Part shown: positions 44,049-61,074 of the stretch, in pieces
How positions within the stretch are numbered: the first letter of the stretch is position 1
Layout of the letters: each line of letters begins with the position of its first letter
Assembly (NCBI RefSeq): GCF_029542205.1
Contig: NZ_CP113783.1
Span: 3,587,001-3,651,000 of the forward strand
Direction of reading: 5' to 3'
DNA: 64,000 nt
Source: Pseudoxanthomonas sp. SE1
Lineage (GTDB): Bacteria; Pseudomonadota; Gammaproteobacteria; Xanthomonadales; Xanthomonadaceae
The notes under the pieces: model-generated
Databases searched by the model: none
What the model was told of the DNA's origin: nothing
Seen by the model: only the letters and a program-made list of their open reading frames with translations
Position numbers and translations under genes: made by a program

Positions 44049-45158
44049 TCAGTTGCCGCGGTCGAAGTTGTATTGCGCCGCGGCCGCATTGCTGATGATG
44101 CCGGACAAGGGCAGCAGCTGGGTCAGGAAGCGGTTCCAGCGCGTCACGCCTGCCGGGCCCACCCATACGACGTCGCCCGGTCGCAGCGGGAAGCGGTCCG
44201 CCATGGTGAAGGCGACCGGTGACGCGGCATCGAGGTGGTACACCGTCGCCTGCTCGTGCGAATCGTCCTCCATGCCCCGGATCACGTAGACCGCTCCGCC
44301 CTTGGCCGTTACCGGATTCAGTCCGCCGGTGCGGCCGAGGGCCTGGGTCAGGCTCATGTCGGTGGTCTTGAAGGTCAGCGCCTGCGGGCGCAGCACTTCG
44401 CCGATCACATAGACCTGCTTCCGATCGTTGAACGGCATGTGCAGCCGGTCGCCCGGCTTCAGGTACACGTCGGCGGCGACCTTGCCGCCACGATTCAACG
44501 CATCCAGGTCGAGCGGATAGTCGGTGCCGTCGCGCGTCAGCACGAAGCCGGACAGATCGGCTTCTTCGACATCGATGCGCGCGCGGCCGACCGCCTGTGC
44601 CAGCGTCAGCGGCACCGTGGTGAACTCCTGGGGCGTGGTGTCCTCGAACGCGCCCTGCAGCGTGACCCGTGCGCCATGGCCGACCACGTTCACGTCGACC
44701 TGCGGGGATTTCAGATACTGGCTCAGCCGGCTCGCAAGGGTGCTGCGCACCTGCTCGATCGTCATGTCGGTGACGTTGAGCTTGCCGGCGTACGGAAAGA
44801 AGAAGCTTCCGTCGGGCTGCACCAGACGCCCGTTGGTGGCGGCCTGCTGCTGGTTGCCTGCCGGCGTCGTGAGCTCGGGGTGGTCCCATACGGTGACGAT
44901 CAGGGTATCGCCGGGCTGGATGCGATACGCCTCGGGCCGATACTGCGCGAGCGCCGGCGGCAGCACGACGGCCGTGCGCGGCGCGGCGACCAGCGCTTGC
45001 GTGATCGGCACCATGCGGACATCGCTCTGCGCTTCACCCTCGCCGCTCGGCACGCTGGCACCGCGCATCATGCGCTGGCCGGGACCGAGTGAGCACGCGG
45101 AGAGCGCGGCGACGATGGCTGCGGCGAGCAGGACTTGGACAGGACGCTGGATGTTCAC
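44049..45158 (-). CDS. Wza/GumB-type polysaccharide export lipoprotein
   Basis: Outer-membrane polysaccharide export protein of about 369 residues. The GTG start at 45158 (next to another GTG) is preferred because it gives a clean lipoprotein signal VNIQRPVQVLLAAAIVAALSAC and has GAGG eight bases upstream. The Poly_export domain begins YRIQPGDTLIVTVWDHPEL, and two SLBB-type segments follow (VTLQGAFEDTT and VYVIGEVLRPQ). It should form the periplasm-spanning exit channel with the tyrosine kinase encoded at 55.7-58 kb. Last gene of the minus-strand cluster. Confidence 0.9.
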   Translation of the reverse strand: MNIQRPVQVLLAAAIVAALSACSLGPGQRMMRGASVPSGEGEAQSDVRMVPITQALVAAPRTAVVLPPALAQYRPEAYRIQPGDTLIVTVWDHPELTTPAGNQQQAATNGRLVQPDGSFFFPYAGKLNVTDMTIEQVRSTLASRLSQYLKSPQVDVNVVGHGARVTLQGAFEDTTPQEFTTVPLTLAQAVGRARIDVEEADLSGFVLTRDGTDYPLDLDALNRGGKVAADVYLKPGDRLHMPFNDRKQVYVIGEVLRPQALTFKTTDMSLTQALGRTGGLNPVTAKGGAVYVIRGMEDDSHEQATVYHLDAASPVAFTMADRFPLRPGDVVWVGPAGVTRWNRFLTQLLPLSGIISNAAAAQYNFDRGN

Positions 45159-45274
45159 CACCGGATACCTCACTGTTTCGGTTGCGGCACCCATGCCATG
45201 CACGGGATGCGGACGTTCACTGGATCGTCGCAACGGTGGCGTGAAGAGAACGGCGGAAGCAGCCCAACGGTGGA

Positions 45275-46036
45275 TTAATGCGCGTGCGCGCCGGCCCATG
45301 CGGCCGCCAGCGCGGCGAATTCCTTGAATGCGCGCCCGCTGCGCCATAGCGCGCGTCGCGACGGCAGCCAACGCTCGCGCAGGCCGACCGCAGGGCGCCC
45401 TTCCGGCACGGGCACCGGCGTGACATCGGCGCCGGCCTGCGTGAAGAGCAGCGCCGCACGCGGCATGTGCAGCGCCGATGTCACCAGCAGCACATGGCGC
45501 CCGCCATGTTCTCCCGCAAGCGCAGTACTGAAGCGCGCATTGTCGCGCGTGTCGTGGCTGTGTTCCTCCAGCACGAGGGCATCTTCCGGAACACCGAGGC
45601 GCCCGATCGCGTCCGCCATCCTGCGCGCTTCGGTGGTCTTGCCGACTCCACCACCGCTGAGGATCACCTTGGGCGCCTTCCCCGCATGCCAGGCGCGTGC
45701 GCCGGCGGCGAGGCGGCTGCTGCGCAGGCGCGCCGGATCCACGTCTTCGCGATCCAGCCAGGCATAGTTGCTGCCGCCGCCCAGCACGACGATGGCGTCC
45801 GCCGGGGGCAATGCCGCCGTGTCGCGGACGGCATAACGCTGCTCCAGCGTGCCGCGCAACGTGTCGGACGCAAGCGGGAGCGACCACAGCGCCGACCATG
45901 CCAGCGCCATGCCCGCGATGCCGGCGGCGGCCCTGCGCCGCCGCAGCATCCATGCGACCGCGGCGATTGCCAGCAGGCACAGCGAAAACACCGGCGGGTA
46001 GCTCAACGACACCACGAGGTCGGCCAATGCTTTCAT
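45275..46036 (-). CDS. YdcF/ElyC-family (DUF218) membrane protein
   Basis: Predicted 253-residue protein with two N-terminal helices (PPVFSLCLLAIAAVAWML and AAAGIAGMALAWSALWSLPLA) and a DUF218 domain: ADAIVVLGGGSNYAW, KVILSGGGVGKTTEARRMADA, EEHSHDTRDNA and LLVTSALHMPRA. E. coli relatives ElyC and SanA affect envelope polysaccharide metabolism through lipid-carrier balance, consistent with a place inside a polysaccharide cluster. It begins just before the epsG-like stop, with which it nearly overlaps. Confidence 0.85.
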   Translation of the reverse strand: MKALADLVVSLSYPPVFSLCLLAIAAVAWMLRRRRAAAGIAGMALAWSALWSLPLASDTLRGTLEQRYAVRDTAALPPADAIVVLGGGSNYAWLDREDVDPARLRSSRLAAGARAWHAGKAPKVILSGGGVGKTTEARRMADAIGRLGVPEDALVLEEHSHDTRDNARFSTALAGEHGGRHVLLVTSALHMPRAALLFTQAGADVTPVPVPEGRPAVGLRERWLPSRRALWRSGRAFKEFAALAAAWAGAHAH

Positions 46037-46046
46037 CGCATGGCCC

Positions 46047-47105
46047 TCAGATGACGATGCCACGGCTGACATAGAAGAACAGCACCCCGCAGGCCGCACC
46101 CAGGCCGGCGCCGAGCAGCAGCGGTTGTCGCAGCGGCGCGAGCCGGCTGTAGCAGCCGGCAGCCGCCAGGATCAGCGACACGGCGAGCCAGCCCGGCAGC
46201 AGATAGCGGTTGGAGAAATAGCCCCAGCCGATCGCGAAGAACGGCAGCACCATGACAAGGTAGACCGACGCGCTTTCCTGTAGCGGTCTGCGCGCCGCCG
46301 GCTGTATCCAGGGGGACACCGCCAGCATCACCAGGTACCAGAACATCGTGAACACCGCGAAATCGATCCGCACCCCCGCACGGTAGTTGTCGTTGGCGGT
46401 GTATTCCATGACCGTCGCGTACAACGTCGGCGACATGGTGCCCACGGCCTTCATCGACAGTCCGCTGACGTAGGCGAGGAACGCCAGCACGGCCATCGCG
46501 CGCAGCAGGTTGGGCTTCAACAGCAGCGCCGGTGCGCAGGCCAGATACAGAAGCGAGGAGACATGCAGGCTGGCGGCAAGCACCCCGAGCAGCACGAACC
46601 CCCGCCACCGGCGCTGCCGGAAGCACAGCAATGCGGCGAACACGAGCGGTGCCGCCAGGCCCTGGCGGATGGCGTTGATCGACGCGTTGACGAACATCGG
46701 CGAGATGAACAGCAACAGCAGCGAGGCGCACAGCAGCGTGGGATACGCCTGCGTCGGCGGGAATGCGCGGTGGTTGATCCGCACCGCGATGGCGACGCCC
46801 GCCAGCAACAGCGCGAACAGCACCGCCTGGTATCCCGGCACGCCGAGGCCCAGCAGGCGCAGGCCGTAGCTCAGGTACGCGAAACCGGGCTCCAGGCGCG
46901 TCTCCGGGACGCCCTGGTCCAGGCTCTCGAAGAAGCCCGCATAGGTTGCCGTGTCCGAGCCGATGTCCAGGGGGCGGCTGCCCACCAGCCAGCAGCCGAA
47001 CATAGCCACGACGAGCAGCCACGCGACGCCGAGCCAGCGCTCCGCGTTCGCATGGGGGCTGCGGGCAGGTCGCAGATACGGGAGCGCAGTGCCGGAAGCC
47101 TTCAT
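46047..47105 (-). CDS. EpsG-like polysaccharide polymerase (Wzy role)
   Basis: Inner-membrane protein of 352 residues with about ten helices. Typical EpsG features are IGSDTATYAGFFESL (periplasmic acidic loop), RINHRAFPPTQAYPTLL, and INAIRQGLAAPLVFAALLCF, the conserved N-RQ signature. EpsG family members polymerise lipid-linked repeat units. No other Wzy candidate is in the cluster. The gene starts 4 bp after the glycosyltransferase stop. Confidence 0.8.
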   Translation of the reverse strand: MKASGTALPYLRPARSPHANAERWLGVAWLLVVAMFGCWLVGSRPLDIGSDTATYAGFFESLDQGVPETRLEPGFAYLSYGLRLLGLGVPGYQAVLFALLLAGVAIAVRINHRAFPPTQAYPTLLCASLLLLFISPMFVNASINAIRQGLAAPLVFAALLCFRQRRWRGFVLLGVLAASLHVSSLLYLACAPALLLKPNLLRAMAVLAFLAYVSGLSMKAVGTMSPTLYATVMEYTANDNYRAGVRIDFAVFTMFWYLVMLAVSPWIQPAARRPLQESASVYLVMVLPFFAIGWGYFSNRYLLPGWLAVSLILAAAGCYSRLAPLRQPLLLGAGLGAACGVLFFYVSRGIVI

Positions 47106-47109
47106 GCGC

Positions 47110-47952
47110 TCACCGCGTCGCCGCTGGCCGCATCAGCATCAACATGCGCCGGCGTCCGCGCCGCACCAGTCCCACACCGCGTGCGAACCAATGCTCGCCA
47201 CGCGTGACCAGCCCGGCGGCCAGTAGTTCCCGGCGCACTTCCTTGCCGGCCCGGTGCATCGCATCCAGATCGCCGCTGAGTCCGGCCGCGCCGAAGGTGG
47301 GCTTGTGCCAATAGGCGAGGACCTGGTTGAGCTTGACGCAGCGATAGCCGGAGAAGCCGATCTGCGCCCAGAGCAGGAAATCCTCCACCCGTCGGAAGCG
47401 CTCGTTGAAGCGGAACGGCAGGTCGCGACGCAGGACCACCGAGGCCGTGGGGAACGGATTGTTGAGCAGCAGCCGGCGGCGCCCGATCACCCGTGCCCGC
47501 ACGGTGCCGCGCAGCGGCTCCGGCGCGGCACCGCGGGGAGCGACCTTCATGCGGTGCGCGATCAGCGCGATGCGGGGATCGCGCTCGAGTTCGGCCATCT
47601 GCCAGGCAAGCTTGTCCGGGGCCCAGGTATCGTCGGCATCGAGGAAGGCGATGTACGGCTGCACCGCCTGCCGCCAGCCGAGATTGCGCGCGCGCGAGGG
47701 TCCGCCGTTCGGCGACGACGCGATCACTTTCACCCAACCTTCGGGATAGTCGGCCGCCACGCGGTGCAGGGCGTCGAGTGTGTCGTCGCCACTGGCATCG
47801 TCCACCAGCAGCACTTCTGCCGGGCGCCGTGCCTGGGCTGCCACCGACGCCACCGCATCGCCGATGGTGTCGCCGCAGCGGTAGCACGGCACCACCACGC
47901 TCACCGGCGCGGTCGCACCGGCGCTGGAGTCGGACTGGATGTGGTCGTTCAT
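47110..47952 (-). CDS. GT-A family 2 glycosyltransferase
   Basis: Predicted 280-residue cytosolic enzyme. The nucleotide-sugar fold starts VSVVVPCYRCGDTIGDAVASV; the metal site is in YIAFLDADDTWAPDKL; RRVEDFLLWAQ is a likely catalytic-region acidic segment. GT2 proteins of this kind add one sugar of the repeat unit using an inverting mechanism. The start overlaps the pyruvyl-transferase stop (ATGA). Confidence 0.87.
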   Translation of the reverse strand: MNDHIQSDSSAGATAPVSVVVPCYRCGDTIGDAVASVAAQARRPAEVLLVDDASGDDTLDALHRVAADYPEGWVKVIASSPNGGPSRARNLGWRQAVQPYIAFLDADDTWAPDKLAWQMAELERDPRIALIAHRMKVAPRGAAPEPLRGTVRARVIGRRRLLLNNPFPTASVVLRRDLPFRFNERFRRVEDFLLWAQIGFSGYRCVKLNQVLAYWHKPTFGAAGLSGDLDAMHRAGKEVRRELLAAGLVTRGEHWFARGVGLVRRGRRRMLMLMRPAATR

Positions 47953-49091
47953 GCCTGGGCCCATGGTGCGCATTGGAAGATGTCCGCTGCCCGACGCGCG
48001 TAAGCGGTGCGTGAAACGCCCGGCCGCCGTTCGCCTGCGAGCAAGGCGGGCAATGCGTCGCTGAACGGGTTGTCGGTATCCGCTGCCGTGACCCGCAACG
48101 ATGCATGCAGGCCTATGTCGTCGGCGAAGTCGCGGCATTTGGGGTGATAGTCGATGATCATGAACGGGACGTCCTGCAGGTAGGCCACGATCGCCCCGTG
48201 CAGGCGCGCGCTCACCACCACATCACATGCTGCCAGGGCCCCGACGGTGCGCAGCGGATCCTGGCTCGCATACGCATGCCATTCCGCCGGTACGCCCTCG
48301 CTGCGCAGCCGCTCCACCAGGCGCTGCGCGAGCGCGCGATCGCCATGTCGGGGATGTTCGTTCAGGCTGAACACGTCGACGATGACATCGCGGAAGCGTC
48401 GCAGCCCTGCCAGGGTGGCGATCAGGTGTTCTTCCCAGCGCCGCCGCAAGGGCGCCGCGTACTCGCCATGCTCCGGGTACCGACAGGGCGCCACGCCGAT
48501 GCGCACCGGCGCACCCGCCGCCTTCTCGGGCTCGTCGTCGTCCATCGAAGATCCGACGGGCGGCAGCAGTGCGGCCAGATCGCATCCCGCATGGGTGATC
48601 GCATCCAGCCCCATCTTCTTCGCGAGACGATGCGAGCGCTCGTCGCGCACCGACAGGTAGCGGAAGCGCTGCAGGAATCCGGCGACCGAATCCTCGTCGC
48701 GCGCGCTCTCGAACGGTCCGATCGACACACCCACCGCCGCAAGCTGCACGCCTCGCTCCACCGCCGACAGCATCATCGGTTTACGGAACGATTCGCGCGC
48801 TGTGATCACCGAGCCCCCGCCCATCACCAGCACATCGCAGTCGTGGAGTCCCCGCGCGAAGCTGAGCCACCGGCTGGCCTTGCCGACCAGGCCCGTGCCG
48901 CCGTACCAGTTCGCCGGATAGCGCCGCGGCACGGTGCTGCGCGCGGGCGCCGCCGCCAGTGGCGGCCCCACCACCCTCGGTACCGCATGCCAGTACGCCC
49001 GCGCCGCGCGCGCGCAGAGCACGCCGAACAGGTCGTCGCCGAAGTTGCGCATGCCGTAGTAGCCCGTGAAGGCCGTGCGCAGCGACGTCAT
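47949..49091 (-). CDS. Polysaccharide pyruvyl transferase family protein
   Basis: Predicted 380-residue enzyme that would place a ketal-linked pyruvate on a sugar of the repeat unit using phosphoenolpyruvate. Family landmarks: TGYYGMRNFGDDLFGVL near the start, DVLVMGGGSVITA, IGPFESARDEDSV and the C-terminal VVVSARLHGAIVAYLQDVPFMIIDYHPK with the conserved RLH. It is coupled on both sides by 4-base overlaps. A pyruvyl group would make the polymer acidic. Confidence 0.88.
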   Translation of the reverse strand: MTSLRTAFTGYYGMRNFGDDLFGVLCARAARAYWHAVPRVVGPPLAAAPARSTVPRRYPANWYGGTGLVGKASRWLSFARGLHDCDVLVMGGGSVITARESFRKPMMLSAVERGVQLAAVGVSIGPFESARDEDSVAGFLQRFRYLSVRDERSHRLAKKMGLDAITHAGCDLAALLPPVGSSMDDDEPEKAAGAPVRIGVAPCRYPEHGEYAAPLRRRWEEHLIATLAGLRRFRDVIVDVFSLNEHPRHGDRALAQRLVERLRSEGVPAEWHAYASQDPLRTVGALAACDVVVSARLHGAIVAYLQDVPFMIIDYHPKCRDFADDIGLHASLRVTAADTDNPFSDALPALLAGERRPGVSRTAYARRAADIFQCAPWAQA

Positions 49092-50392
49092 GGCACACCC
49101 CGCAGCACGGCGGCGCGCCGCGCACCGTGGTACATCGCCAGCAGCAGCAGGACTTCCGCCCCCAGCGTGGCGAACGCCGCGCCCATGGCGCCGTGCGCGG
49201 GGATCAGCAGCAGATTGAGCAGCGCCGCTGCAATGGCGGCCGCCAGCATCGCGCCCACGCGGTAGGCCATCTGGCCTTCTGTCAGCAGGACGGCACCGAC
49301 GGCGGTGGACACGAAGCGCACCGGCACGCATACCGCCAGCAACATCAGCAGCGGCTGCAGCCCCGCATAGCGTTCGCCGAACACGCGGACCGCCTCACCC
49401 GACACCGCCGCCAGCACTGCCCCGACCAGCAGGCCGCTCGCGAGCATGCCGACGCAGCCTGCGCGGTATACCTGCCGGAAGCGCGCGCGATCGTGCACCG
49501 CCCATCGGTGCAGGCGCGCAAGCAGGAACTTCTGGTACACCGTGGCGGGGAACAGGTAGATCGCCGTCATCACCGCCAGCGCGATGCCGAAAACGCCGGC
49601 CTCCGCGTCGCCGCGCAGGTACTTCAGCAATACCGTACCGATCTGGAAGAACACCGGATACAGCACCGCGGCCACGCCATACGGCCACGCCAGACGGAAG
49701 AGCGCCCGCGCGTCGGGCGGTGCGATATCGCGCGCCAGCGTGGCATCGCGCGGACCGTGGCCCTTCAACGACCATTCGCAGCGATGCATCGCCTGCCATT
49801 GCGGCAGCGCCAGTGCCCACGCGACGATCGCCAGCATGGCGTGGCCCCAGGCGACGGCATGGATCGACATCGACAGTCCCGCCACGGCAAGCAACGCGAT
49901 CGCCAACCGGCCCGCCGGCATCAGCAGTTGCCAGCCGGCGAGTGCGGCATGCCGCTCCTCCAGGCGCAGCTTGCTGCCGATCTGCTCGACCGCCAGCAGG
50001 CCGAGGATGAAGGGCGCAAGGACCAGCAGCATGTGGCGCGTCTGCGCGTCCACCGGCGGCCCGGCGAGGGCCCACGCCACGATGCCGCCCACCGCCAATG
50101 CGCTTGTGACGGCAATGAAGCGCGTCGATGCGGGCTGCCAACGTTCGGCGGACCAGCCCTCGGCGCCGTGCGCCTTCAACCGGAACTGGGAGAGGCCGAA
50201 GCCCGCCAGGGGCGCGATCAGACTGACCGTCGCCAGCGATGACGCGAACAGGCCGTACTGCGCCGGGCCGAAGTGACGCGCAAGCAGCACCTGGGCGAAG
50301 AACACCATCGCCGCGCCTCCCGCCGTCGCCAACGACAGCACGGACAGCGCAGCGAGCGCCGGACGCCACGGCACGGGCAAGGCCAGGCTCAT
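49088..50392 (-). CDS. Wzx-type oligosaccharide flippase
   Basis: Polytopic membrane protein of 434 residues with about twelve helices and the PST/MVF pattern (AMVFFAQVLLARHFGPAQYGLFASSLATVSLIAPLAGFGL at the start is characteristic). It should translocate undecaprenyl-linked repeat units to the periplasmic leaflet for the EpsG-like polymerase. ATGA overlaps occur at both ends. Confidence 0.86.
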   Translation of the reverse strand: MSLALPVPWRPALAALSVLSLATAGGAAMVFFAQVLLARHFGPAQYGLFASSLATVSLIAPLAGFGLSQFRLKAHGAEGWSAERWQPASTRFIAVTSALAVGGIVAWALAGPPVDAQTRHMLLVLAPFILGLLAVEQIGSKLRLEERHAALAGWQLLMPAGRLAIALLAVAGLSMSIHAVAWGHAMLAIVAWALALPQWQAMHRCEWSLKGHGPRDATLARDIAPPDARALFRLAWPYGVAAVLYPVFFQIGTVLLKYLRGDAEAGVFGIALAVMTAIYLFPATVYQKFLLARLHRWAVHDRARFRQVYRAGCVGMLASGLLVGAVLAAVSGEAVRVFGERYAGLQPLLMLLAVCVPVRFVSTAVGAVLLTEGQMAYRVGAMLAAAIAAALLNLLLIPAHGAMGAAFATLGAEVLLLLAMYHGARRAAVLRGVP

Positions 50393-51540
50393 GCGGCCGC
50401 CGCAAGCGGCTGCGGCAGCAGCTCGTCGTAGACCTCGCACGTCCGGCGGATCACCGCGCGTTCGTCGAAATCGGCCAGTGCCTTCTCCCGCGCACGCGCG
50501 CCCAGCTGGTGCAGCAGCGTGCGATCGTCGTCCAACCGCGCCAGCACCTGCGCCAGAGACTCCGCGCTGCGCGGCAGCACGTGCAGCCCGTCATGGCCAT
50601 CGCGCGTCACCACTTCACGGCAGCCGGGCAGGTTGGTGGTGACCAGCGCAACGCTGCAGGCGGCGGCTTCGATCAGGCTCTTCGGCACGCCCTCGCGGTA
50701 GTAGCTGGGCAGGGCCATCACGTGCACGCCGCGGAGCAGCGCGGGCATGTCGTCCACATGGCCAAGCCAGGTCACCAGCCCCTGCGCCTGCCACTCTTCG
50801 ACTTCGGCGCGCGTGACCGAGCCCGGATTGCCCTCGTCCGGCATGCCGGCCAGCAGGAACCGTACGTCGCGACCTTCCGCACGCAGGCGCGCGGAGGCCT
50901 CGGCGTACTCGCACACGCCCTTTTCCTTCAGGAGACGGGCCGCCAGCAACACCCGCAGCGCACCGTCGCCGGCCTGGCGACCTTCCGTGTTGAAGCGTGC
51001 GATGTCGACGCCGGAACTCCGGATCAGGCGGATGTGCTGCGGCGGCGCCAGGCGCAGGGAATGGAAGGCCTGCGCATCGTCGGGGTTCTGCAGGATCACG
51101 CGCGACCGTTCGCTGCCCAGGGCCACGCGCATCAACGCCGACACCACCGGCCGAAGCACGCGCGCCTTCATTCCGTCGCTGGCGAAGACGTAGCCGAGCC
51201 CCGTCACCGCATTGACATACGCGGGCACGTTCGCTGCGCGCGCGGCGAGTGCGCCATACACGGCGCACTTGAGCGTGAAGCTGTGCAGCAGATCGGGGCG
51301 CTCCTCTCGCAGCAGCGCGACAAGGCCCGCCAGCGTTCCCGCCTCGCGCAGCGGATTCAGGCTGGCGCGCTGCATGCGCAGCGGCACCCAGCGCACGCCG
51401 TGCTGCGCGAAGCGTGGACCGAATTCGCCCGGCGGGGAAACCATCACCACGTCCACCCCGCGGGCCTGCAATGCGCGCGCCGTGGACAGACGGAAGTTGT
51501 AGAGGTACCAGTCGGTGTTGGCGAACAGGACGAATTTCAA
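50389..51540 (-). CDS. GT-B family 4 glycosyltransferase
   Basis: Predicted 383-residue retaining glycosyltransferase. A TTG start is proposed at 51540 since GGAG lies six bases upstream and homology starts at LKFVLFANTDWYLYNFRLS. The donor-site region is LPSYYREGVPKSLIEAAAC followed by TNLPGCREVV, the E-x7-E-like block of GT4. The N-terminal domain resembles PglA/EpsD-type enzymes that add the second sugar to lipid-linked intermediates. The gene overlaps the flippase start. Confidence 0.85.
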   Translation of the reverse strand: MKFVLFANTDWYLYNFRLSTARALQARGVDVVMVSPPGEFGPRFAQHGVRWVPLRMQRASLNPLREAGTLAGLVALLREERPDLLHSFTLKCAVYGALAARAANVPAYVNAVTGLGYVFASDGMKARVLRPVVSALMRVALGSERSRVILQNPDDAQAFHSLRLAPPQHIRLIRSSGVDIARFNTEGRQAGDGALRVLLAARLLKEKGVCEYAEASARLRAEGRDVRFLLAGMPDEGNPGSVTRAEVEEWQAQGLVTWLGHVDDMPALLRGVHVMALPSYYREGVPKSLIEAAACSVALVTTNLPGCREVVTRDGHDGLHVLPRSAESLAQVLARLDDDRTLLHQLGARAREKALADFDERAVIRRTCEVYDELLPQPLAAAA

Positions 51541-51643
51541 GACGGGCTCCGCGCGGGTCGATCTCCGGATTCTAGGAAACGCCTCCCCGAAACCCATTGA
51601 CGCACTCACCACAACACACCCGCACACGTGAACACGAAAACGG

Positions 51644-51689: not shown

Positions 51690-52925
51690 TCACTTTGCGT
51701 ACTGGTTCGTCGTCACGCGGATGTCGGTGGCCGTGGACACTTTCGCGATATGCGCCCCATTGCCCTTGTTGCCACCCACCAGTCCCGTCAACGCGACCAA
51801 TGGGTTCTCCACCGTGTTCACGCCATGCAGGCGCGTGTGGTTGTTCCGGAACACGTTGCCGCTCACCTGGTAGTTGTAGGTGCCCGAACCCAGCATCATG
51901 CCGACAAGATGGTTGTGCCGGATCGTGTTGAGCGCCACGTACCCGCTCTCCGGCCCGATGGTCAGGATGCCGTGCCCACCGTTGTACTCGATAGTGCAGC
52001 GCTTGACGGTCACGCCCTTGACGCGCTTGTAGAGCAGCAGGCCATTGCCGGCGTTGCCGCGGATCAGGCAGTTCTCGATGTGCACCGTCGAGGTGGTGCG
52101 GGCGTCGTTGGAGTCCGGCTCCACATCGATGCCGCACTCGGGCGCGATGCCCCGCGTATCGCTGAACTCGCTGTCGTACACCTTCACGTTGTTGGCGCAA
52201 CCGATCGTCAGGCCCTGGCGGCGATTGCCGGTGCTCACGATGTTGGCGATCACCACGTCATTGCACGGAATGGTCGGCGCGTTGGTCACCATGGCTCCGC
52301 CGATGGAGACGCCGTCGCCCCAGCACCGCGAGATGTGCATGTCGCGCAAGGTCACGCGGGACGATCCACGGATCATGATGCCGTGGCCCCACTCGCCGGT
52401 GGTGCCCAGGTGGTTGTCGCGGTCGCCGATGATGCGACCGCCGGAGATCTCGACGTTGCTGACCTTGTAGGCCATCAGCACGTAGGCGCGTTCCTGGTCG
52501 TTGCGCTTCGCCCGCAGCACGGCGCCGTCCGCCAGCTGCAGGTGCATGTTGCTGCGCAGGCGCACGTTGCGGGTCGGATCGATCACGTAGTCGCCGGCCG
52601 GCACGTGGATCGTGCCACCGGTCGAGGGCAGCGCATCGATGGCGGCCTGGAACGAGGTGGTGTCGTCGCGCGCGCCGTCGCCGGCCGCGCCCCAGTCCCG
52701 CACACTCAGCGTCGCCGTACCGCGTGCACGCGCCGGCGGGTCGTAGACCGCTGTCGCCGACATCGAGAGCGCTGGCATGTTGCCCGCCATGACGGCGCCG
52801 AGCGCGCGCGGGATGCCGCAGGCCACGCCGATGGCGGGCAACGCGACGAGCATCGACTTGCGCAGGAAATCGCGCCGAGGCATCCCAGCCTCGCGCACGT
52901 CGTGCACGAGAACATTCTTCTTCAC
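51690..52925 (-). CDS. Tat-exported right-handed beta-helix protein 1
   Basis: Predicted 411-residue protein. A GTG start at 52925 follows AGGGG at eight bases and yields an N-terminus with a Tat motif ([23 protein letters not shown]). The mature part has the pectate-lyase-superfamily N-cap [25 protein letters not shown] and then repeated strands ([54 protein letters not shown]). No catalytic residues of a known lyase family were identified. In a polysaccharide cluster such proteins are usually lyases, hydrolases or epimerases acting on the polymer. Confidence 0.78.
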
Positions 52926-53131
52926 AAACGTTACCCCTCGCGGGCAGGTGCCCGTCGGAAAAATTGCCATGTGAGCGTCGCGTGCGACCCGCGACGAGGG
53001 CGACTATAGCGACGGATACGCAACCACCGGTTAACGTGTCGGCGTATCTGTGAACCCCTTCAAACACTTCCCGCATGCACAGGCTTTTCACGCGAACGCC
53101 GTCACGCATCTTCACGCGCGCGATCGTGGTT

Positions 53132-53244: not shown

Positions 53245-54294
53245 TCATTCGAACCGGTTGTTCCGTTCCACGCGAACGCGCGTCGCGGACTTCGCCACGT
53301 CGACGTGCATCCATCCCTTCATCGCCTGCGGCCGCTGCTTGCGCAGGCCCGCGGCGTTGCCGGAAAAGCGGTTGCCCGCCACGGCGATGTCGTGCCCGCC
53401 ACCCCGTACCACGATGCCGCGCAGGCCGTTGTCGGCGATGTCGTTGTCTTCGATCACGCACTGCTCGCCGCCGCGGATCAGCACGCCGTCGCCCCGGTTG
53501 CCGCGGATGACGCAACGGCGGACGGCGATGCGACGCCCACGTTCGTAGACCTGCAGGCCCGCCCCGTGGTTGCCGCGCAGCGTGCAGGCCTCGATGCCGA
53601 TGTCCTCCGCGCCGTCGCCGGGGTCGGGCTCGATATCGATGCCGCAGCCCGGCAGCGTGCCGTGCGTGGCGAGGAAGTGGGACCGCAGGACGCGGACGCG
53701 GCGTGAGCGTCCGATCGTCAGGCCCTGCCGGCGGTTCCCCGCACAGACGACATCCTCGATGCGGATGTCCCGGCTGGGTACCACGCGCGCGCCGCTGATG
53801 CCGCCGATGGAGATGCCATCGCCCCAGCATCGGGTGATGTGGAGGTCGCGCAGCAGCACCTGTTCCGCACCCCGCACCATGATGCCGTGGCCCCACTCGC
53901 CGGCATTGGAACGGTGATGGTCGCGGTCGCCGACGATCCTGCCACCGCTGACCTGCACGTCATGCACGCCTTCGAGCAGGAGCACATACGCCCGGGGGGC
54001 CGCGTTCGCGCGCGCGATCAAGCGCGTGTCCGGCGCCATGGACAGGCGGGTACGCGAACGCAGGCGCAGGCTGCGTTCGGGATCGATCACGTAGTTGCCC
54101 GGCCCCAGCGCCAGCGTGCCGCCGGCGGGCAACGCATCGATAGCGGCCTGCAGGGCGCGCGTGTCGTCGCTAATCCCGTCGCCGCGCACGCCGAAGTCGC
54201 GCGCATCCAGGGTCCTTGCGCGGACTGCGGGCAGGACCGAGGCGAGCAGCAGGCCCGTCCCGGCGCCCATCATGCGGCGGCGGGACAGCCGCAT
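53245..54294 (-). CDS. Tat-exported right-handed beta-helix protein 2
   Basis: Predicted 349-residue paralogue of the preceding protein. Tat-like N-terminus MRLSRRRMMGAGTGLLLASVLPA; then [69 protein letters not shown] and LHITRCWGDGISIGG, nearly colinear with protein 1. It is shorter at both ends. The start overlaps the stop of the asparagine-synthase-like gene (TGATG). Probably acts with protein 1 on the polymer in the periplasm. Confidence 0.78.
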   Translation of the reverse strand: MRLSRRRMMGAGTGLLLASVLPAVRARTLDARDFGVRGDGISDDTRALQAAIDALPAGGTLALGPGNYVIDPERSLRLRSRTRLSMAPDTRLIARANAAPRAYVLLLEGVHDVQVSGGRIVGDRDHHRSNAGEWGHGIMVRGAEQVLLRDLHITRCWGDGISIGGISGARVVPSRDIRIEDVVCAGNRRQGLTIGRSRRVRVLRSHFLATHGTLPGCGIDIEPDPGDGAEDIGIEACTLRGNHGAGLQVYERGRRIAVRRCVIRGNRGDGVLIRGGEQCVIEDNDIADNGLRGIVVRGGGHDIAVAGNRFSGNAAGLRKQRPQAMKGWMHVDVAKSATRVRVERNNRFE

Positions 54295-55727
54295 CAGGCC
54301 GCCATCGATTCGCGACGCGGCGCCGTGGCGCTGCCCGCGGCCTGCGACGCATGCGCCATCAGCCACGGCAGCACCACGGCCAGCAGATAGAACTTCGATG
54401 CGTGGTACTTGTTGTCCAGGTGCCGGCGATTGCGCTCCAGCCATGACGGCGCGCCGGGCAGCAGGTCGCGGGCCTGGCCGGCGAAGGCATGCACCTGCTC
54501 GAACCGCCGCGCCGCCAGCGCGCAGACATCGAAGCGGAAGCTGCCCTTGCGCTGCACGTAGGGCAGGTTCCCGAAGCGCGCCGCGATATGCCGACGGATG
54601 AGGACCTTGTTGAGTCCGGTCTCCGGGTCCACCTTCTGCCTGCGCGGCACTTCGTGATGGATCCACTCGCGCAGCGCGCGATCGCAGAACGGATACGCGG
54701 CGCCGAGACCGGCGCCATGCGCCGTGTACAGGCCTTTGGCGAAGGCGCCGGCCGATCCGGCGATGGACATCGACATGTCGCGCCATTCCCATGCGCTGGT
54801 GGCGGAGGCGATTTCCTTCCTGAACAACGACAGCCGCCCCCGCGAATGCCGCGCGATGTCGCGACCGAACAGCGCATCCACCTCGGCATCGCTGAAGCGC
54901 GAACCGGGGAACACGCGCTCGATGGGTGTCATCTGCAGCGTGCCGAGCGCGAAACACAACGGGAAGCTGCCCGACACGCCGGGCAACCCGGTGGCGTCGA
55001 ACGGCAGTCGCAGACCGCGCGCAAGGCGCACCGTCAGTTGCTGCTGCAGATCGACCGGCGTGCCGAAGTAGCTGTCGGCGCCCAGGCCGTCGATGACGCC
55101 ATCGCCACCGCAGGACGCCACTTCGGTCGCCAGATCGGCATAGGACAGCAGGGCGAAATCCGCCGTCAGCAGCGGCATGCGTGCGGCGAGCGCCAGATAG
55201 CGGTCGTATGCGCGCGCGGCGTCGCATACCAGCACCTCATGGCGCAACCCGAGCCGGGTGGCGACCTGGCGCGCCGAATCCAGTTCGTTCTCCTCGCGTC
55301 CGCCGAGATACGTGATGCAGGCGGCGTCCGGGCGCGCTTCGGCCAGCGCGATGGCCAGCGTGGTGGAATCCTTGCCGCCGCTCTGCAACTGCCAGGGCGA
55401 GCGCATGCCGGCGCACGTGCGGGTGATCGCATCGCACAGCATGCGGTGGTAAACCGCGATCCAGTCCTGTGGCCGGTCCGCGACTTCCGGCACTTCGCCC
55501 GCATTGCGGAACTTGAAACGGAAGTCCGGCGCGGCGCGCATGTCCTGGTCCGCCGAGAACCCGAACGTCACCAGCTTGACGCCCTCGTAGATGGAATGCG
55601 GTGGATACACGAACGCATTGCGCAGCAGGTCGGCCACCGACACCGGATCGATCCTGTGGTACTCCGGGTGACGGTCCAGCACCGAGAAGTCCGGCGTGCC
55701 GTAGTACGGCGACATCGTGATCTGCAT
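54294..55727 (-). CDS. Asparagine-synthase-like amidotransferase lacking the glutaminase domain
   Basis: Predicted 477-residue protein equivalent to the C-terminal ATP-pyrophosphatase half of AsnB. The PP-loop is WQLQSGGKDSTTLAIAL near residue 125-140, and a conserved DGLGADSYFG block follows (VIDGLGADSYFG). The N-terminus starts MQITMSPYYGTPDF with no Cys2 and no Ntn-hydrolase domain, so it needs ammonia or a partner. GGAGG precedes the ATG. In surface-polysaccharide loci such enzymes amidate uronic acids; this role is inference. Confidence 0.75.
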   Translation of the reverse strand: MQITMSPYYGTPDFSVLDRHPEYHRIDPVSVADLLRNAFVYPPHSIYEGVKLVTFGFSADQDMRAAPDFRFKFRNAGEVPEVADRPQDWIAVYHRMLCDAITRTCAGMRSPWQLQSGGKDSTTLAIALAEARPDAACITYLGGREENELDSARQVATRLGLRHEVLVCDAARAYDRYLALAARMPLLTADFALLSYADLATEVASCGGDGVIDGLGADSYFGTPVDLQQQLTVRLARGLRLPFDATGLPGVSGSFPLCFALGTLQMTPIERVFPGSRFSDAEVDALFGRDIARHSRGRLSLFRKEIASATSAWEWRDMSMSIAGSAGAFAKGLYTAHGAGLGAAYPFCDRALREWIHHEVPRRQKVDPETGLNKVLIRRHIAARFGNLPYVQRKGSFRFDVCALAARRFEQVHAFAGQARDLLPGAPSWLERNRRHLDNKYHASKFYLLAVVLPWLMAHASQAAGSATAPRRESMAA

Positions 55728-55740
55728 CGAAGCCGCCTCC

Positions 55741-57999
55741 CTACCGGCCCGCACCGGCGCGCGGCGCCGGGAGGTACTCGTAGTAGGTATAGGCGTACTC
55801 GCCCGCACCACGCTTCTCCACGCCGTTGAAGATGGCGCCCTTCACTTCCACCCCGTTCTGTTCCAGGCGCTGCTTGGCCAGTGCGATCTCGCGCTGCTGG
55901 TTCAGGCCGAAGCGCACGACCATCAGGCAGGTCCCCGCGTGATGGCCGATGACCGCCGCGTCCGTGACCGCCAGCACCGGCGGCGTATCGATCAGCACGA
56001 TGTCGTACTCGCCCGAGACGCGCTTGAGCAGGTCGCTGAAATTCCCGTGCATCAGCAGTTCCGACGGGTTGGACGGAATCGCACCGCGGGAGATGAAGGA
56101 CAGGTTCTCGGCGCCTGCGACACGGCGGACCGCATCGTCCAGCGGAATGCGGCCGGCGATGACATCGGACAGGCCGTTTTCCCAGCGCACGCCCACCGCG
56201 TCGTGCAGCGTGCCGCGGCGCATGTCGGCATCGATCAGCAGCACCCGCTGCCCGGTCTGGGCGATGGCCACCGCCAGGTTGGCGCAGATGAAGGTCTTGC
56301 CCACGCCCGGGCTGGGCGCCGAGATCATCAGCAGGTTGTTGCGGGTGCGCATCCGCGCGAAATGCAGGCTGGTCCGCAGCGAGCGCAACGCCTCCATCGC
56401 CAGGTCGGCCGGCGCATTCAGCGCCAGCAGCCGCGACCTGCCATCGCGGCGACGGTGGCCCATGCGCCGGGTCAGCGCCTGGCCCTTCTTGCTCAGCGGA
56501 ATCGACGCGTACACCGGCAGGCCCAGCAACTCGATATCGACCGGGTCTTCCACGCCACGACGGAACATCTGCTGCAGCAGCACCACGACCACCATCACCA
56601 CCAGGCCGAGCAGCGTGCCGACCGCCAGCACCGGCAGCGGCTTGGGCCAGGCGGGGCTGTTGAGGTTGACGGCGGCCGGATCGATCACGCGGGCGTTGCC
56701 CACGGCGCTGGCCTTGGCGATCTCCAGTTGCTGGGCCTGGTCCAGCAGGTTGGCGTAGGTCTGGTTGGTGACCTCGACGTCGCGGTTCAGGCGGAACAGC
56801 ACCTGCTGCGTGTCCGGCAGGTCGTGGATCCGGCCCTGGAGGCGGTTGCGCTCACCCTGGAACCGGCTGATCTGGTCCTGCAGCGCGCGGTAGGTCGGAT
56901 GGGCCGCCGTGTAGCGGTTCTCCACCTCCGTCATCTTGATGCGCAGCTGCTGGATGCTGGAGTCCAGCGCGATGGTCTGGTCGAGCAGCGCGCGGTTCTG
57001 CGTCTCCACGTCCAGCGTCTGGGTGCGCGTCTGGAAGGCGGTCAGCGCCGCCTGCGCCTTGGCCAGATCCTCGCGCACTTTCGGCAGCTGCTCGGTGACG
57101 AACTCCAGCCGGCTGGCCGCTTCGGCCGATGTCCTTGCGACGTTCTGGCGCACGTAGGCCCCGGTGACCTCATCCAGCACGCGACGCGCACGCTCGGGGT
57201 CGGCATGCGCGTAGGTCAGGCCGATCACGCCGGAGTTGCGACCCAGTTCGGTGGCCGTGATGTTCTCCTTGAGCGCCGCCATCACCGCCGACGGATCATG
57301 GCGCGTCACCTGGAACCGCATGCCCGGGTTGGCGCTGAGCCTGCGCACCTGCATCGCCACGCCCCCCGCGCTCACCGGTTCGCCGACGCGGCCGCGCGCA
57401 AGCACGGTTCCCTGCGCGGACAGCACGTAGGCGCCTTCGCGTCCTGCCGTCAGCTCCAGCGGCACGCCCATCAGGTGCGCCGGCACGTCGAGCCGGGTGA
57501 TGTCGAGGACCTCGCCGCCCCACCCGTACTTCGACAGGCCGAACCAGGGCGCCGCCAGCTCGCCGGGGCTCGCCCGCTCATGGCGCCGGGCGAGGAAGTC
57601 GCCGACCGCCGGCAGATGCACCGCCTTCACGTCGACATCCAGGTCCATGTTCGAGATGGCTTCGCCGATCACCCGGCGCGAGGTCAGCAGCTGCACCTCG
57701 GTGGTACCGGGCGTGGGAACCGCGGGCGGCGCCTGCATGGCCGTGTTCTGGCTGATGCCGGGCGGGATCGCCGGGCGGCTCTCCACCTGGACCACCGCAT
57801 TGGCTTCGTACTGGGGCGTGACCACCGCCAGGTAAGCGACGCTCGCCAGCACGAAGGCGGCCGTGCCGAAGAGGATGAACTTCTTCCTGGCCGCCAGCGT
57901 CGAGACCAGTGCCGGGATGTCGACGTCGTCGCCGCGCAGGGATGCCGCCGCCGGAACCGGCCCGTCCGGGCCGCGTCGCGTGATCAACTGCGTCGCCAT
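55741..57999 (-). CDS. Wzc/GumC-type polysaccharide co-polymerase and tyrosine autokinase
   Basis: Inner-membrane protein of 752 residues. Two membrane helices near 42-60 and 455-475 flank a periplasmic Wzz/GNVR domain with long coiled coils (about 265-425). The cytosolic BY-kinase domain has Walker A SAPSPGVGKTF (Lys568), Walker A' VLLIDADMRRG (586-596) and Walker B IVLIDTPPV. The C-terminal Tyr cluster YAYTYYEY is the autophosphorylation tail. It controls chain length and export with the Wza-like lipoprotein. Confidence 0.94.
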   Translation of the reverse strand: MATQLITRRGPDGPVPAAASLRGDDVDIPALVSTLAARKKFILFGTAAFVLASVAYLAVVTPQYEANAVVQVESRPAIPPGISQNTAMQAPPAVPTPGTTEVQLLTSRRVIGEAISNMDLDVDVKAVHLPAVGDFLARRHERASPGELAAPWFGLSKYGWGGEVLDITRLDVPAHLMGVPLELTAGREGAYVLSAQGTVLARGRVGEPVSAGGVAMQVRRLSANPGMRFQVTRHDPSAVMAALKENITATELGRNSGVIGLTYAHADPERARRVLDEVTGAYVRQNVARTSAEAASRLEFVTEQLPKVREDLAKAQAALTAFQTRTQTLDVETQNRALLDQTIALDSSIQQLRIKMTEVENRYTAAHPTYRALQDQISRFQGERNRLQGRIHDLPDTQQVLFRLNRDVEVTNQTYANLLDQAQQLEIAKASAVGNARVIDPAAVNLNSPAWPKPLPVLAVGTLLGLVVMVVVVLLQQMFRRGVEDPVDIELLGLPVYASIPLSKKGQALTRRMGHRRRDGRSRLLALNAPADLAMEALRSLRTSLHFARMRTRNNLLMISAPSPGVGKTFICANLAVAIAQTGQRVLLIDADMRRGTLHDAVGVRWENGLSDVIAGRIPLDDAVRRVAGAENLSFISRGAIPSNPSELLMHGNFSDLLKRVSGEYDIVLIDTPPVLAVTDAAVIGHHAGTCLMVVRFGLNQQREIALAKQRLEQNGVEVKGAIFNGVEKRGAGEYAYTYYEYLPAPRAGAGR

Positions 58000-58072: not shown

Positions 58073-60433
58073 TCATGACGCGGCCCGGGCGCCCAGCCGT
58101 TCGCCCAAGTCGGAACGGGCAGCGCGCGGCGCGCTAGCGGTGCGCAGGCCTGCCAGCGCGTCGAGCACCGGCGCACAGCGGTCGTCGCGGGGGATGTCCA
58201 GGTCCGGCACATCGCACAGCGATACGTAGACCGCATCGTCGCCCAGCAAAGCCAGCACGCGGCCGGCGATCGCCACGGGTGTCGTACCGATGGCGACGGC
58301 GTCGTCCCCGCCGCCGGTCTCTTCCTGCGCGAGCAGCACGGGCTTGCCCAGCAGACGGCGTGGCGGTGGCGCTCCCGCCCCCACCAGTACCAGGTGCGCG
58401 CGCTCGAGCAGATAGGCCCATGCAAGGAAATCGTCGACGTCCAGGGGATGCACGTTGGCGAACGTGTGCAGCGGATCGCCGCCTTCGCCGGGCGCCACCC
58501 CCACCCCGCCGACCCAGACGATGTCCACGTCGGGCCTGCGGCGCGCGACCATCGCCAGCGCGTCCGAGAAGGCGCCCTGTCCCGGCCCGCCGCCACGCGC
58601 GCTGACGGCCATCAGCAGCGGTGCATTGCCGCGCAGGAAGCCGAAGCCTGCGGCCAGCGAGCGCGCCAGGTCGGCGTCGCGACGGATCTGGCGCAGCGCG
58701 GTACGCAGCGCGTCATCCGCCACGTCCGCCTGCACGAGGATGCTCTCGCGCGGCACGCCTTCGCCCCTCAGGCGGCGGCCCGTCAGTTCGCTTGGCGCGA
58801 CGTGCAGCGCGGCCAGCGACTGCACGATGCGCCGGCTCGCCTCGCTCGGCCAATGCTGCGTGCCGGAAGCCGGCGCATCGGCGTCCACGCAGACCAGCGG
58901 CACATCGCGTGCGTGCGCTGCCAGGCTCATCGCAAAGGTCATCGGTGCGTCGCCGGGAACCACGATCACGTCCGGATTCGTGTCGCCGATCAGTTGCTGC
59001 ATCTCGGCCTGCGCATCGCCATAGGCGACCGGCCCAGCGCATTCCACGGACACGCTGGCCTGCGCTTCCAATCCGAACATCTGCAGCAGGTGCCCGGCAC
59101 CACCGCCCTGCCCTTCCGCCAGGCAGACGGTTGCCTGGAAACGCGCATCATCAGCCAGGCGCCGTGCGATCGGCGCCACGCCGGCACCCTCGCACGACGC
59201 ATTCACCAGGCAGAGCGCATGCAGGGGCGCATCGTCGCCTCGCACGATGCCGGACATCGTCGTGCGTCCTCCTGCCAGCGCTTCGAACGGGCGGGGGTCC
59301 AGCGGCCGCACCGATACCGGCGCATGATTCAGGTCGCCATCGTCCGGGACATCGCGATGGCCCCGACGCATGCCTCGCGCCGGTGCGCTACCGGACATCC
59401 GGCGCTGCACCACCTCCAGCATGCGCGGAAAGCCGACGACATAGGCCACGGCGGTGGCGATGAACACGAGGAAACTCAGCGGCTGCGCCACGTTGCGCAG
59501 CGCGTGGCCGAGCAGCGCCAGGGCCGCGCCCATCGAGACGATGATCCACAGCGACGCCTGTACCGACACACCGCGGTCGACCAGCAGGTGATGCACGTGC
59601 TGGCGGTCCGCCGCGAACGGCGAGCGTCCGCGCCGCATGCGGCGGTACATCACCGCCGCGGTGTCCATCAGCGGCAGGGCCACGCACCACAGCACCTCGA
59701 CGGGCACCAGCCTGCCCACGCGCGGATGGCTCAGGTGGATCAGGCTCCAGCCCACCAGGAATCCGATCACCGTGCTGCCGGCGTCGCCCATGAAGATCTT
59801 GCGGCCGTCGGGCCAGCCCAGGTTGACGAACACGTACGGGATCAGCGACGCGAACAGGATCTGCAGCATCAGCGTCGTGCCCACGCCGGGCGCGCCGTCG
59901 TGCGCGAACAGGAGGATGGCCGCGATGGACACCATCGCCGTGGATGCAGCGAGGCCATCGATCCCGTCCATCATGTTGAACGCATTCATCAGCCCGATCA
60001 CCGCGATGAGGGTGACCGGGATACCGAGCAAACCCAGCCGCAGGTCGAACACCGGGATGAGGCCGCCGACGTGGTCGAGGTAGAAGCCGGTACTGAGGAT
60101 CACCAGTCCGACGATGGCGGCTTCCACCAGCAGGCGCGTACGCACGCTCAGGTGGCTGATGTCGTCGGCCACGCCGATCGCCACGATCAACGCGCTACCC
60201 ATCATCAGGCTCATCACGAAGCGGTCGACGTAGCCCAGGTAGCCCAGGCCCACCAGCGTGCCCACGAAGAAGCAGATGCCGCCGATCACCGGGACCCGGC
60301 CCACGTGCTGCTTGCGGCCCGCGGGGCGATCCACCAGGCCGACCCGCCGGGCCCATGGCCTCATCGAGAATATGGTGAACAACGTGGCGGCGAGCGCGAT
60401 GGCGCCCGCCGCGACGACCCTTGCATTCTCCAT
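58073..60433 (-). CDS. WecA-type polyprenyl-phosphate sugar-1-phosphate transferase fused to a degenerate WecB-like domain
   Basis: Predicted 786-residue fusion. Residues 1-345 are a complete PNPT enzyme of eleven helices: VADD (88-91), NMMDGIDGLA (153-162), IFMGDAGS (213-220) and HVHH (279-282), all needed for transfer of a sugar phosphate to undecaprenyl phosphate. After a linker (345-400), residues about 405-770 align along their length with UDP-GlcNAc 2-epimerase (APIARRLADDARFQATVCLAE, PDVIVVPGDAPMTFAMSLAAH, HWPSEASRR, LHVAPSELTGRRLRGEGV, LLGKPVLLA). There HVEAG reads CVDAD, the HRRE motif reads SARG, and DSGGIQEE reads GAGAPPPR, so catalysis is unlikely. It probably initiates the repeat unit. 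Confidence 0.85.
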   Translation of the reverse strand: MENARVVAAGAIALAATLFTIFSMRPWARRVGLVDRPAGRKQHVGRVPVIGGICFFVGTLVGLGYLGYVDRFVMSLMMGSALIVAIGVADDISHLSVRTRLLVEAAIVGLVILSTGFYLDHVGGLIPVFDLRLGLLGIPVTLIAVIGLMNAFNMMDGIDGLAASTAMVSIAAILLFAHDGAPGVGTTLMLQILFASLIPYVFVNLGWPDGRKIFMGDAGSTVIGFLVGWSLIHLSHPRVGRLVPVEVLWCVALPLMDTAAVMYRRMRRGRSPFAADRQHVHHLLVDRGVSVQASLWIIVSMGAALALLGHALRNVAQPLSFLVFIATAVAYVVGFPRMLEVVQRRMSGSAPARGMRRGHRDVPDDGDLNHAPVSVRPLDPRPFEALAGGRTTMSGIVRGDDAPLHALCLVNASCEGAGVAPIARRLADDARFQATVCLAEGQGGGAGHLLQMFGLEAQASVSVECAGPVAYGDAQAEMQQLIGDTNPDVIVVPGDAPMTFAMSLAAHARDVPLVCVDADAPASGTQHWPSEASRRIVQSLAALHVAPSELTGRRLRGEGVPRESILVQADVADDALRTALRQIRRDADLARSLAAGFGFLRGNAPLLMAVSARGGGPGQGAFSDALAMVARRRPDVDIVWVGGVGVAPGEGGDPLHTFANVHPLDVDDFLAWAYLLERAHLVLVGAGAPPPRRLLGKPVLLAQEETGGGDDAVAIGTTPVAIAGRVLALLGDDAVYVSLCDVPDLDIPRDDRCAPVLDALAGLRTASAPRAARSDLGERLGARAAS

Positions 60434-60615: not shown

Positions 60616-61074
60616 TCAGCCCGCCAGGCGGGGCTCCCGCGCGCACCATTCCGACACGCAGTGCTCGATCACCGCGAACGCGCGCTCGAAATCTTCCGGG
60701 GTCCCGCCGACAGGATCGTCGATCTCCTTCGAGATTCCCCAGCGCCCGAGCAGGTGCATGCGTGCTCGCGCGTCCGGCGCGAGCGCACGCAGCGCCTGGA
60801 GATGCCGTCGCTGCATGGCCAGTACGAGATCGTCAGGTCCGATGGACGCGGGATCGAACGGACGCGCAACCGGATCCAGCACGCGAAGGCCGTGCGCCTC
60901 AAGGACCGCGCCGGCACGCGCATCGATGGCGCGGCCAGGCTGGGCAGCCAGACCAGAGGCGAGGACCCGGCAGCGGCCCGCGGGCACCCTGGCATGGAAC
61001 AGCGCCGCCGCGATCGGACTGCGGCACAGGTTGCCCATGCATACGACGTGTAAGGTAAACACCCGAGTGCCCAT
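60616..61074 (-). CDS. Low-molecular-weight protein-tyrosine phosphatase (Wzb-like)
   Basis: Predicted 152-residue cytosolic phosphatase. The P-loop is VVCMGNLCRSPIAAALF (C-x5-R), and the general-acid Asp is in EIDDPVGGTPEDFERA, both complete. It should dephosphorylate the tyrosine autokinase tail, allowing cycles of polymerisation and export. An in-frame ATG at 61089 and a GTG at 61065 are alternative starts. It lies 182 bp upstream of the WecA fusion and points the same way. Confidence 0.88.
   Translation of the reverse strand: MGTRVFTLHVVCMGNLCRSPIAAALFHARVPAGRCRVLASGLAAQPGRAIDARAGAVLEAHGLRVLDPVARPFDPASIGPDDLVLAMQRRHLQALRALAPDARARMHLLGRWGISKEIDDPVGGTPEDFERAFAVIEHCVSEWCAREPRLAG

Follow-up and report, generated by a model that had tools for sequence, protein, structure and literature searches.

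A WecA-type initiating transferase fused to a degenerate UDP-GlcNAc 2-epimerase domain in Pseudoxanthomonas and related Xanthomonadaceae

Within a 64,000-nucleotide stretch of the Pseudoxanthomonas sp. SE1 genome (contig NZ_CP113783.1, positions 3,587,001 to 3,651,000, hereafter the window), an exopolysaccharide (EPS) cluster contains a gene encoding a WecA-type PNPT domain, a linker and a WecB-like domain in a single chain (Table 1). The initial annotation of this DNA had described the protein as such a fusion, with the active-site residues of the second domain lost and a Wzc kinase gene next to it, and our analysis bears out all of these statements. The PNPT part reaches 98.3 bits against PF00953 (curated cut-off 27), matches an MraY-like fold and contains the acidic and His motifs that are conserved in such transferases (DD, NAFNMxDGIDGLA, FMGDAGS, DRQHxHH); judging by these motifs, it probably starts the repeat unit by transferring GlcNAc-1-P onto undecaprenyl phosphate. 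The C-terminal domain reaches 55.6 bits against PF02350 (cut-off 30.6) and has the expected WecB-family fold. The protein stays below the cut-offs of TIGR02380, the WecA of enterobacterial common antigen synthesis (268.4 versus 326.05 bits), and of TIGR00236 (71.9 versus 210.15 bits).

Table 1. Parts of the fusion protein and neighbouring genes in the window
Feature	Position	Strand	Remarks
PNPT/WecA-type fusion gene	58073..60433	-	786 residues; C-terminal end AAS
PNPT (WecA/MraY-type GlcNAc-1-P transferase) domain, residues 1-345	59399..60433	-	
Linker, residues 346-401, low model confidence	59231..59398	-	pLDDT <50 at 348-398; omega 0.378 (95% 0.160-0.848, window pair)
Pseudo-epimerase N-lobe, residues 402-570	58724..59230	-	three helices, aligned to T. 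thermophilus 2-epimerase dimer-interface helices
Inter-lobe helices and degenerate nucleotide-binding C-lobe, residues 571-748	58190..58723	-	about the stretch lost in 13 excised relatives
Final helix region, residues 749-764	58142..58189	-	retained by excised forms
C-terminal tail, residues 765-786	58076..58141	-	ends AAS
wzb-like low-molecular-weight tyrosine phosphatase (start inferred)	60616..61074	-	PF01451
wzc-like polysaccharide co-polymerase/tyrosine kinase	55741..57999	-	WZC_N, GNVR, Wzz, AAA_31
Asparagine-synthase-like protein, marker of dead-domain cluster type	54294..55811	-	PF00733
Right-handed beta-helix protein (start inferred)	53245..54294	-	PF13229
Right-handed beta-helix protein	51690..52970	-	PF13229
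GT4-type glycosyltransferase	50389..51627	-	PF13692, PF00534
Wzx-type flippase	49088..50440	-	PF01943
Polysaccharide pyruvyl transferase (real start probably internal)	47949..49331	-	PF04230
GT2 glycosyltransferase	47110..48138	-	PF00535
EpsG-family protein, probable polymerase (Wzy role inferred)	46047..47105	-	PF14897
DUF218 protein	45275..46099	-	PF02698
Wza-type export protein (real start probably internal)	44049..45980	-	PF02563, SLBB_2

Judged by the substrate, catalytic and allosteric residues named in PMC11464976 (E. coli numbering, mapped by alignment), only three of the 15 key residues are left in the window protein (D95, R135 and R214): the catalytic D95, E117, E131 and H213 correspond to D, D, S and A (1/4 kept), the other substrate residues R10, K15, R135, S290 and E296 to S, G, R, G and P (1/5), and the allosteric Q42, H43, Q45, Q69, R214 and H241 to G, Q, G, a gap, R and G (1/6). 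The 59 pseudo rows of the alignment, near-duplicates included (P0001 is the window protein or nearly so), keep 1-7 of these residues versus 14-15 in the 30 intact rows (among which P0147 and P0055 are counted and carry no conclusion), and the two groups do not overlap. The dead domain should have no epimerase activity. The window genome (4.23 Mb, one contig, 100% complete) contains neither a second PF02350 protein over the cut-off nor an NF008286 (WecC) match at E <= 1e-60; the window thus has the PNPT-then-epimerase order in one chain, without the intact epimerase site and adjacent wecC.

In the pseudo rows R10 and H241 are kept in 0/59, Q69 in 1/59, K15 in 2/59, H213 in 3/59 and S290 in 8/59, while R135 is kept in 59/59 and D95 and E296 in 34/59 each, the columns lying in gapped loops (H213, S290, E296) depending on the alignment. 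These counts bear on the proposal of the initial annotation that the domain is a sensor, which binds UDP-GlcNAc or another nucleotide sugar and thereby controls initiation. The retention of R135, D95 and E296, a fold from a partly allosterically regulated enzyme family, and the constraint on the C-lobe in the window lineage (see below) would agree with it, but with so few of the 15 residues left in the window and the pseudo rows, the other six scarcely kept and the nucleotide-binding lobe missing altogether in 13 relatives, apparently from four origins, we regard a sensor as improbable. A domain which has become a new enzyme in the window lineage, a glycosyltransferase or other catalyst, would likewise draw on the GT-B-like fold and on the low C-lobe omega of the window pair (0.101). 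However, of the 52 C-terminal columns conserved to at least 90% in the pseudo rows, 44 agree with the intact forms, and most of the eight changes are conservative (not so H to C at 515 and H to R at 633), and since relatives also dispense with the nucleotide-binding lobe, a new catalyst seems very unlikely.

Among 247 genomes of the family, searched at E <= 1e-30, 43 have the architecture: nine with an intact site, 26 dead and full-length, seven shortened, and one (G024; 83% complete, 6% contaminated) whose gene is open at the contig end and which stands outside the group counts. Matches in 36 more genomes, having at most 39% identity to the PNPT part or covering the epimerase part only, are outside the counts as well, as are some long open frames in these genomes (for example, G212). 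Eighty loci were collected, 13 of them (L049-L061) being analysed by script. Further fusions are found in the databases, several from named isolates; a gene-prediction, frameshift or assembly artefact, for which no point in favour was found, was dropped because so many relatives share the architecture, and its probability is negligible. The dead forms with names belong to Pseudoxanthomonas and Lysobacter (for example, P. indica, L. arenosi, L. dokdonensis), the intact ones to L. enzymogenes, other Lysobacter and Luteimonas. The initial annotation knew of no described family of this kind; this stands insofar as no publication on a WecA-WecB fusion or a pseudo 2-epimerase is among the literature matches listed, most subscription journals lying outside the search, but the architecture itself is common in Lysobacter, Pseudoxanthomonas and Luteimonas, intact-site forms included.

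The core PNPT motifs are found in every row compared, with small variations such as HLHY in many intact rows. On the PNPT tree (82 rows, 21 near-duplicates, L046, six stand-alone WecB proteins, P0164 and P0165 being kept outside it), dead and shortened forms make up one clade (99/98) and the minimum number of intact/dead changes is one, hence the key residues were lost within a single clade; the intact forms lie outside it, the nearest being L054 with weak support (88/75). A 748-residue PNPT-WecB fusion, P0147, sits on a very long branch of this tree (5.56) and is possibly an independent fusion event. In P0064, P0094 and P0142 a WecB domain is joined to UDP-sugar dehydrogenase domains (827 residues) or to a Wzz domain (743 and 699 residues). 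In L062, L077, L092 and further loci from enterobacteria, the two halves of the fusion have matches no more than about 3.3 kb apart; a fusion could have arisen from such a gene order.

Thirteen proteins of the dead clade (among them the near-identical L047 and P0161; P0157, from Lysobacter silvisoli, equals L041; P0160, of 349 residues with no PNPT domain listed, and P0180 were excluded from the set) have no nucleotide-binding lobe. They are not plain C-terminal truncations, a reading which could be ruled out, as the missing 167-182 residues are internal and in-frame, and in all 13 the N-lobe runs straight into the final-helix region. The lobe was apparently lost about four separate times at nearly the same two boundaries, and this repeated loss is limited to the nucleotide-binding lobe; the N-lobe with the final helix was never seen dispensed with in the dead clade. 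According to PMC10622841 and PMC11464976, the last helix of WecB-type structures packs back on the N-lobe. The C-terminal tail of dead and excised forms often ends in AS, VS or AP, whereas 10/11 intact loci end in AA; it is possibly a binding peptide.

The domain is under ongoing purifying selection. We estimated omega by NG86 on close pairs (dead pairs, n=7, chosen without shared branch; the window pair, L006/L007; excised pairs, n=2; intact pairs, n=3), the values being uncorrected for base composition and those for final helix and tail resting on few codons. In the intact fusions omega is 0.038 for the N-lobe, 0.110 for the C-lobe and 0.215 for PNPT; in the dead pairs it is 0.192 (0.158-0.229), 0.320 (0.277-0.370) and 0.135 (0.112-0.160), with 0.405 (0.308-0.525) for the linker; in the window pair 0.141 (0.077-0.235), 0.101 (0.054-0.177) and 0.140, beside the linker value of Table 1; and in the excised pairs 0.381 (0.281-0.512) for the N-lobe, 0.262 for PNPT and 0.694 (0.295-1.224) for the linker. 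The final helix of the full-length dead forms, with 0.431, is not below the linker. The constraint is thus relaxed in comparison to the intact enzyme and yet clearly there, on both lobes in the window lineage. Such a relaxation, together with the absence of 167-182 residues in 13 proteins, would be expected of a folded relict, i.e. a domain without a function of its own, kept soluble to spare the PNPT half, the excisions being removal steps tolerated at lobe boundaries only. This is the main rival explanation, though in our opinion a rather unlikely one: an early stop would delete the domain at once, yet among the matches in the 247 genomes no PNPT-only member exceeds 39% identity (which is not decisive), both lobes have PNPT-level omega in the window lineage, and the same N-lobe junction is seen in 13/13 excised forms.

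In the loci compared, the dead forms are arranged as wzb, fusion and wzc, mostly followed by the asparagine-synthase-like and beta-helix genes. The initial annotation had named a scaffold for Wzc as the other possible role of the domain, which it may be; the adjacency to wzc is conserved in dead forms, but in intact fusions too. Directly after the intact fusion, wecC follows in 9/9 genomes (NF008286 over the cut-off; first in L036), and in the L. salinisoli locus L054 a WecC-like frame lies directly downstream, as read by eye. Among the 33 dead or excised genomes, WecC exceeds the cut-off in five, a separate full WecB lying no more than about 11 kb away in each case; a separate WecB above 250 bits is present in 10/33, a further match of 155 bits in G099, and no second match over the cut-off in 22/33. 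A link to WecG was considered and dropped, as the presence of PF03808 over its cut-off in 5/42 genomes did not speak for or against it. The asparagine-synthase-like gene (E <= 1e-20) occurs in 34/247 genomes, a set identical to the genomes that carry dead, excised or cut (G024) fusions; it is doubled in tandem in G002, G132, G039, G075, G127, G146, G074 and G012, and single in the window.

From these comparisons we suggest for the dead domain a present role as a structural component of the initiating enzyme. The ancestor would have been a WecA-WecB fusion with intact epimerase site which, jointly with the WecC encoded next to it, probably worked for a polysaccharide of the ManNAcA type. This fusion may have moved, in one lineage, into a different Wzx/Wzy EPS cluster lacking WecC, and the epimerase would have lost its catalytic, substrate and allosteric residues, while the PNPT half presumably still starts the repeat unit. 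The topology of WecA, if it applies here, would place the retained non-catalytic module in the cytoplasm. The N-lobe, by which a solved 2-epimerase dimerises, would together with the final helix hold the transferase in a dimer or complex, possibly beside Wzc; this is for us the best explanation of the whole, to which we assign a probability of about 0.55. A dead site, several losses of the nucleotide-binding lobe and a kept N-lobe are easier to reconcile with a structural role than with the sensing of UDP-sugars. More tentatively, and short of an even chance, the epimerase domain may now serve solely for oligomerisation or docking: its site would have been lost once and its nucleotide-binding lobe cut out independently about four times, and the remaining half-epimerase would govern assembly of the initiating transferase with itself or with the Wzc kinase.

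For the T. thermophilus 2-epimerase, PMC10622841 describes a dimer interface made mainly of three N-lobe helices. Their equivalents in the window protein lie at about 468-485, 496-508 and 530-541 (by alignment, the mapping being done by counting from D95), and positions 500, 504, 536 and 475 were placed in the same way, without superposition. Three mapped interface positions are hydrophobic in 59/59 dead and 7/7 excised rows. The same is true for positions 478, 481 and 482, which we do not count as evidence because they were chosen by helix pattern and not from the paper. Better conservation of the interface helices was dropped as proof of dimerisation, the conservation being mixed (entropy 1.92, 1.10 and 1.33 for helices 1 to 3, versus 1.55 for the rest of the N-lobe).

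Several observations weigh against a structural N-lobe. Buried helices would stay hydrophobic for the sake of the fold anyway, the conservation of interface helix 1 does not exceed that of the N-lobe remainder, position 475 (an uncertain equivalent of Leu78) is Q in 16/59 pseudo rows, and position 507, Tyr in 29/30 intact rows, is His in 45/59 pseudo rows. Neither the window pair nor the excised pairs separate N-lobe from linker by their omega intervals, and the excised N-lobe is not clearly tighter than the linker, as a folded relict would also have it. The C-lobe is the tighter lobe in most of the pairs listed for genus g39 and no looser than the N-lobe in the window pair, which a pure N-lobe model would not predict. 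Two of the four excision origins are single long-branch rows (L029, L048), and since the dead forms are one clade, the associations with WecC and the marker gene amount to about one evolutionary event. Finally, a metagenome-assembled Lysobacterales locus outside the dead clade, L057 (10001-20399), has an unfused WecA beside the same EPS gene types (62% for the asparagine synthase, 61% for GT4, 58% for Wzx, 54% for EpsG, 51% for pyruvyl transferase and beta-helix proteins), a cluster which would suit a relict and from which the pathway itself probably works without the dead domain. L057 is at the same time a natural control lacking that domain.

A single bacterial family holds the whole series from intact-site fusion through dead conserved domain to excised half-domain in sequenced genomes, which makes the role of a pseudoenzyme domain after the loss of catalysis directly testable, here at a possible control point in the first committed step of EPS synthesis. 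Caution should be taken with annotations, as several dead-domain proteins bear the database name UDP-GlcNAc 2-epimerase although this activity should be absent.

The closest known systems are the intact fusions of L. enzymogenes, other Lysobacter, Luteimonas aquatica and Luteimonas salinisoli (P0034, P0038-P0053; L030-L038, L051, L054), which have the same PNPT-linker-epimerase order and wzb/wzc neighbours, but differ in their 14-15/15 key residues, in the wecC that follows and in the gene order (wzb-wzc-fusion versus wzb-fusion-wzc in the loci compared). WecA (PF00953/TIGR02380) is alike in the N-terminal domain, core motifs and MraY-like fold, whereas the window protein falls below the TIGR02380 cut-off, carries an extra domain and sits in an EPS cluster; in comparison to WecB/MnaA (PF02350/TIGR00236), its domain has lost most catalytic, substrate and allosteric residues and is under the TIGR00236 cut-off. 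Another epimerase fusion of the Xanthomonadaceae, XAC4296, reportedly joins a lytic transglycosylase to an epimerase and is, by this description, set apart by its partner. Three further cases are precedents and not evidence. In the PNPT enzyme MraY, dimerisation is described as coupled to carrier-lipid binding (PMC9046198). In the Staphylococcus aureus capsule system, the CapAB kinase controls CapM and CapE and phosphorylation modulates capsule enzymes (PMC6441080); here, too, a tyrosine-kinase complex acts on enzymes of capsule synthesis, though with other proteins and no dead-domain fusion. The tyrosine pseudokinase EcpK, proposed to act as a scaffold when Myxococcus makes EPS by its Wzx/Wzy pathway (PMC12004946), is another kind of protein, a separate chain which acts on the co-polymerase and is supported by experiments, yet it resembles the fusion discussed here in being an inactive enzyme that a Wzx/Wzy pathway has retained, with a proposed role in protein-protein contact.
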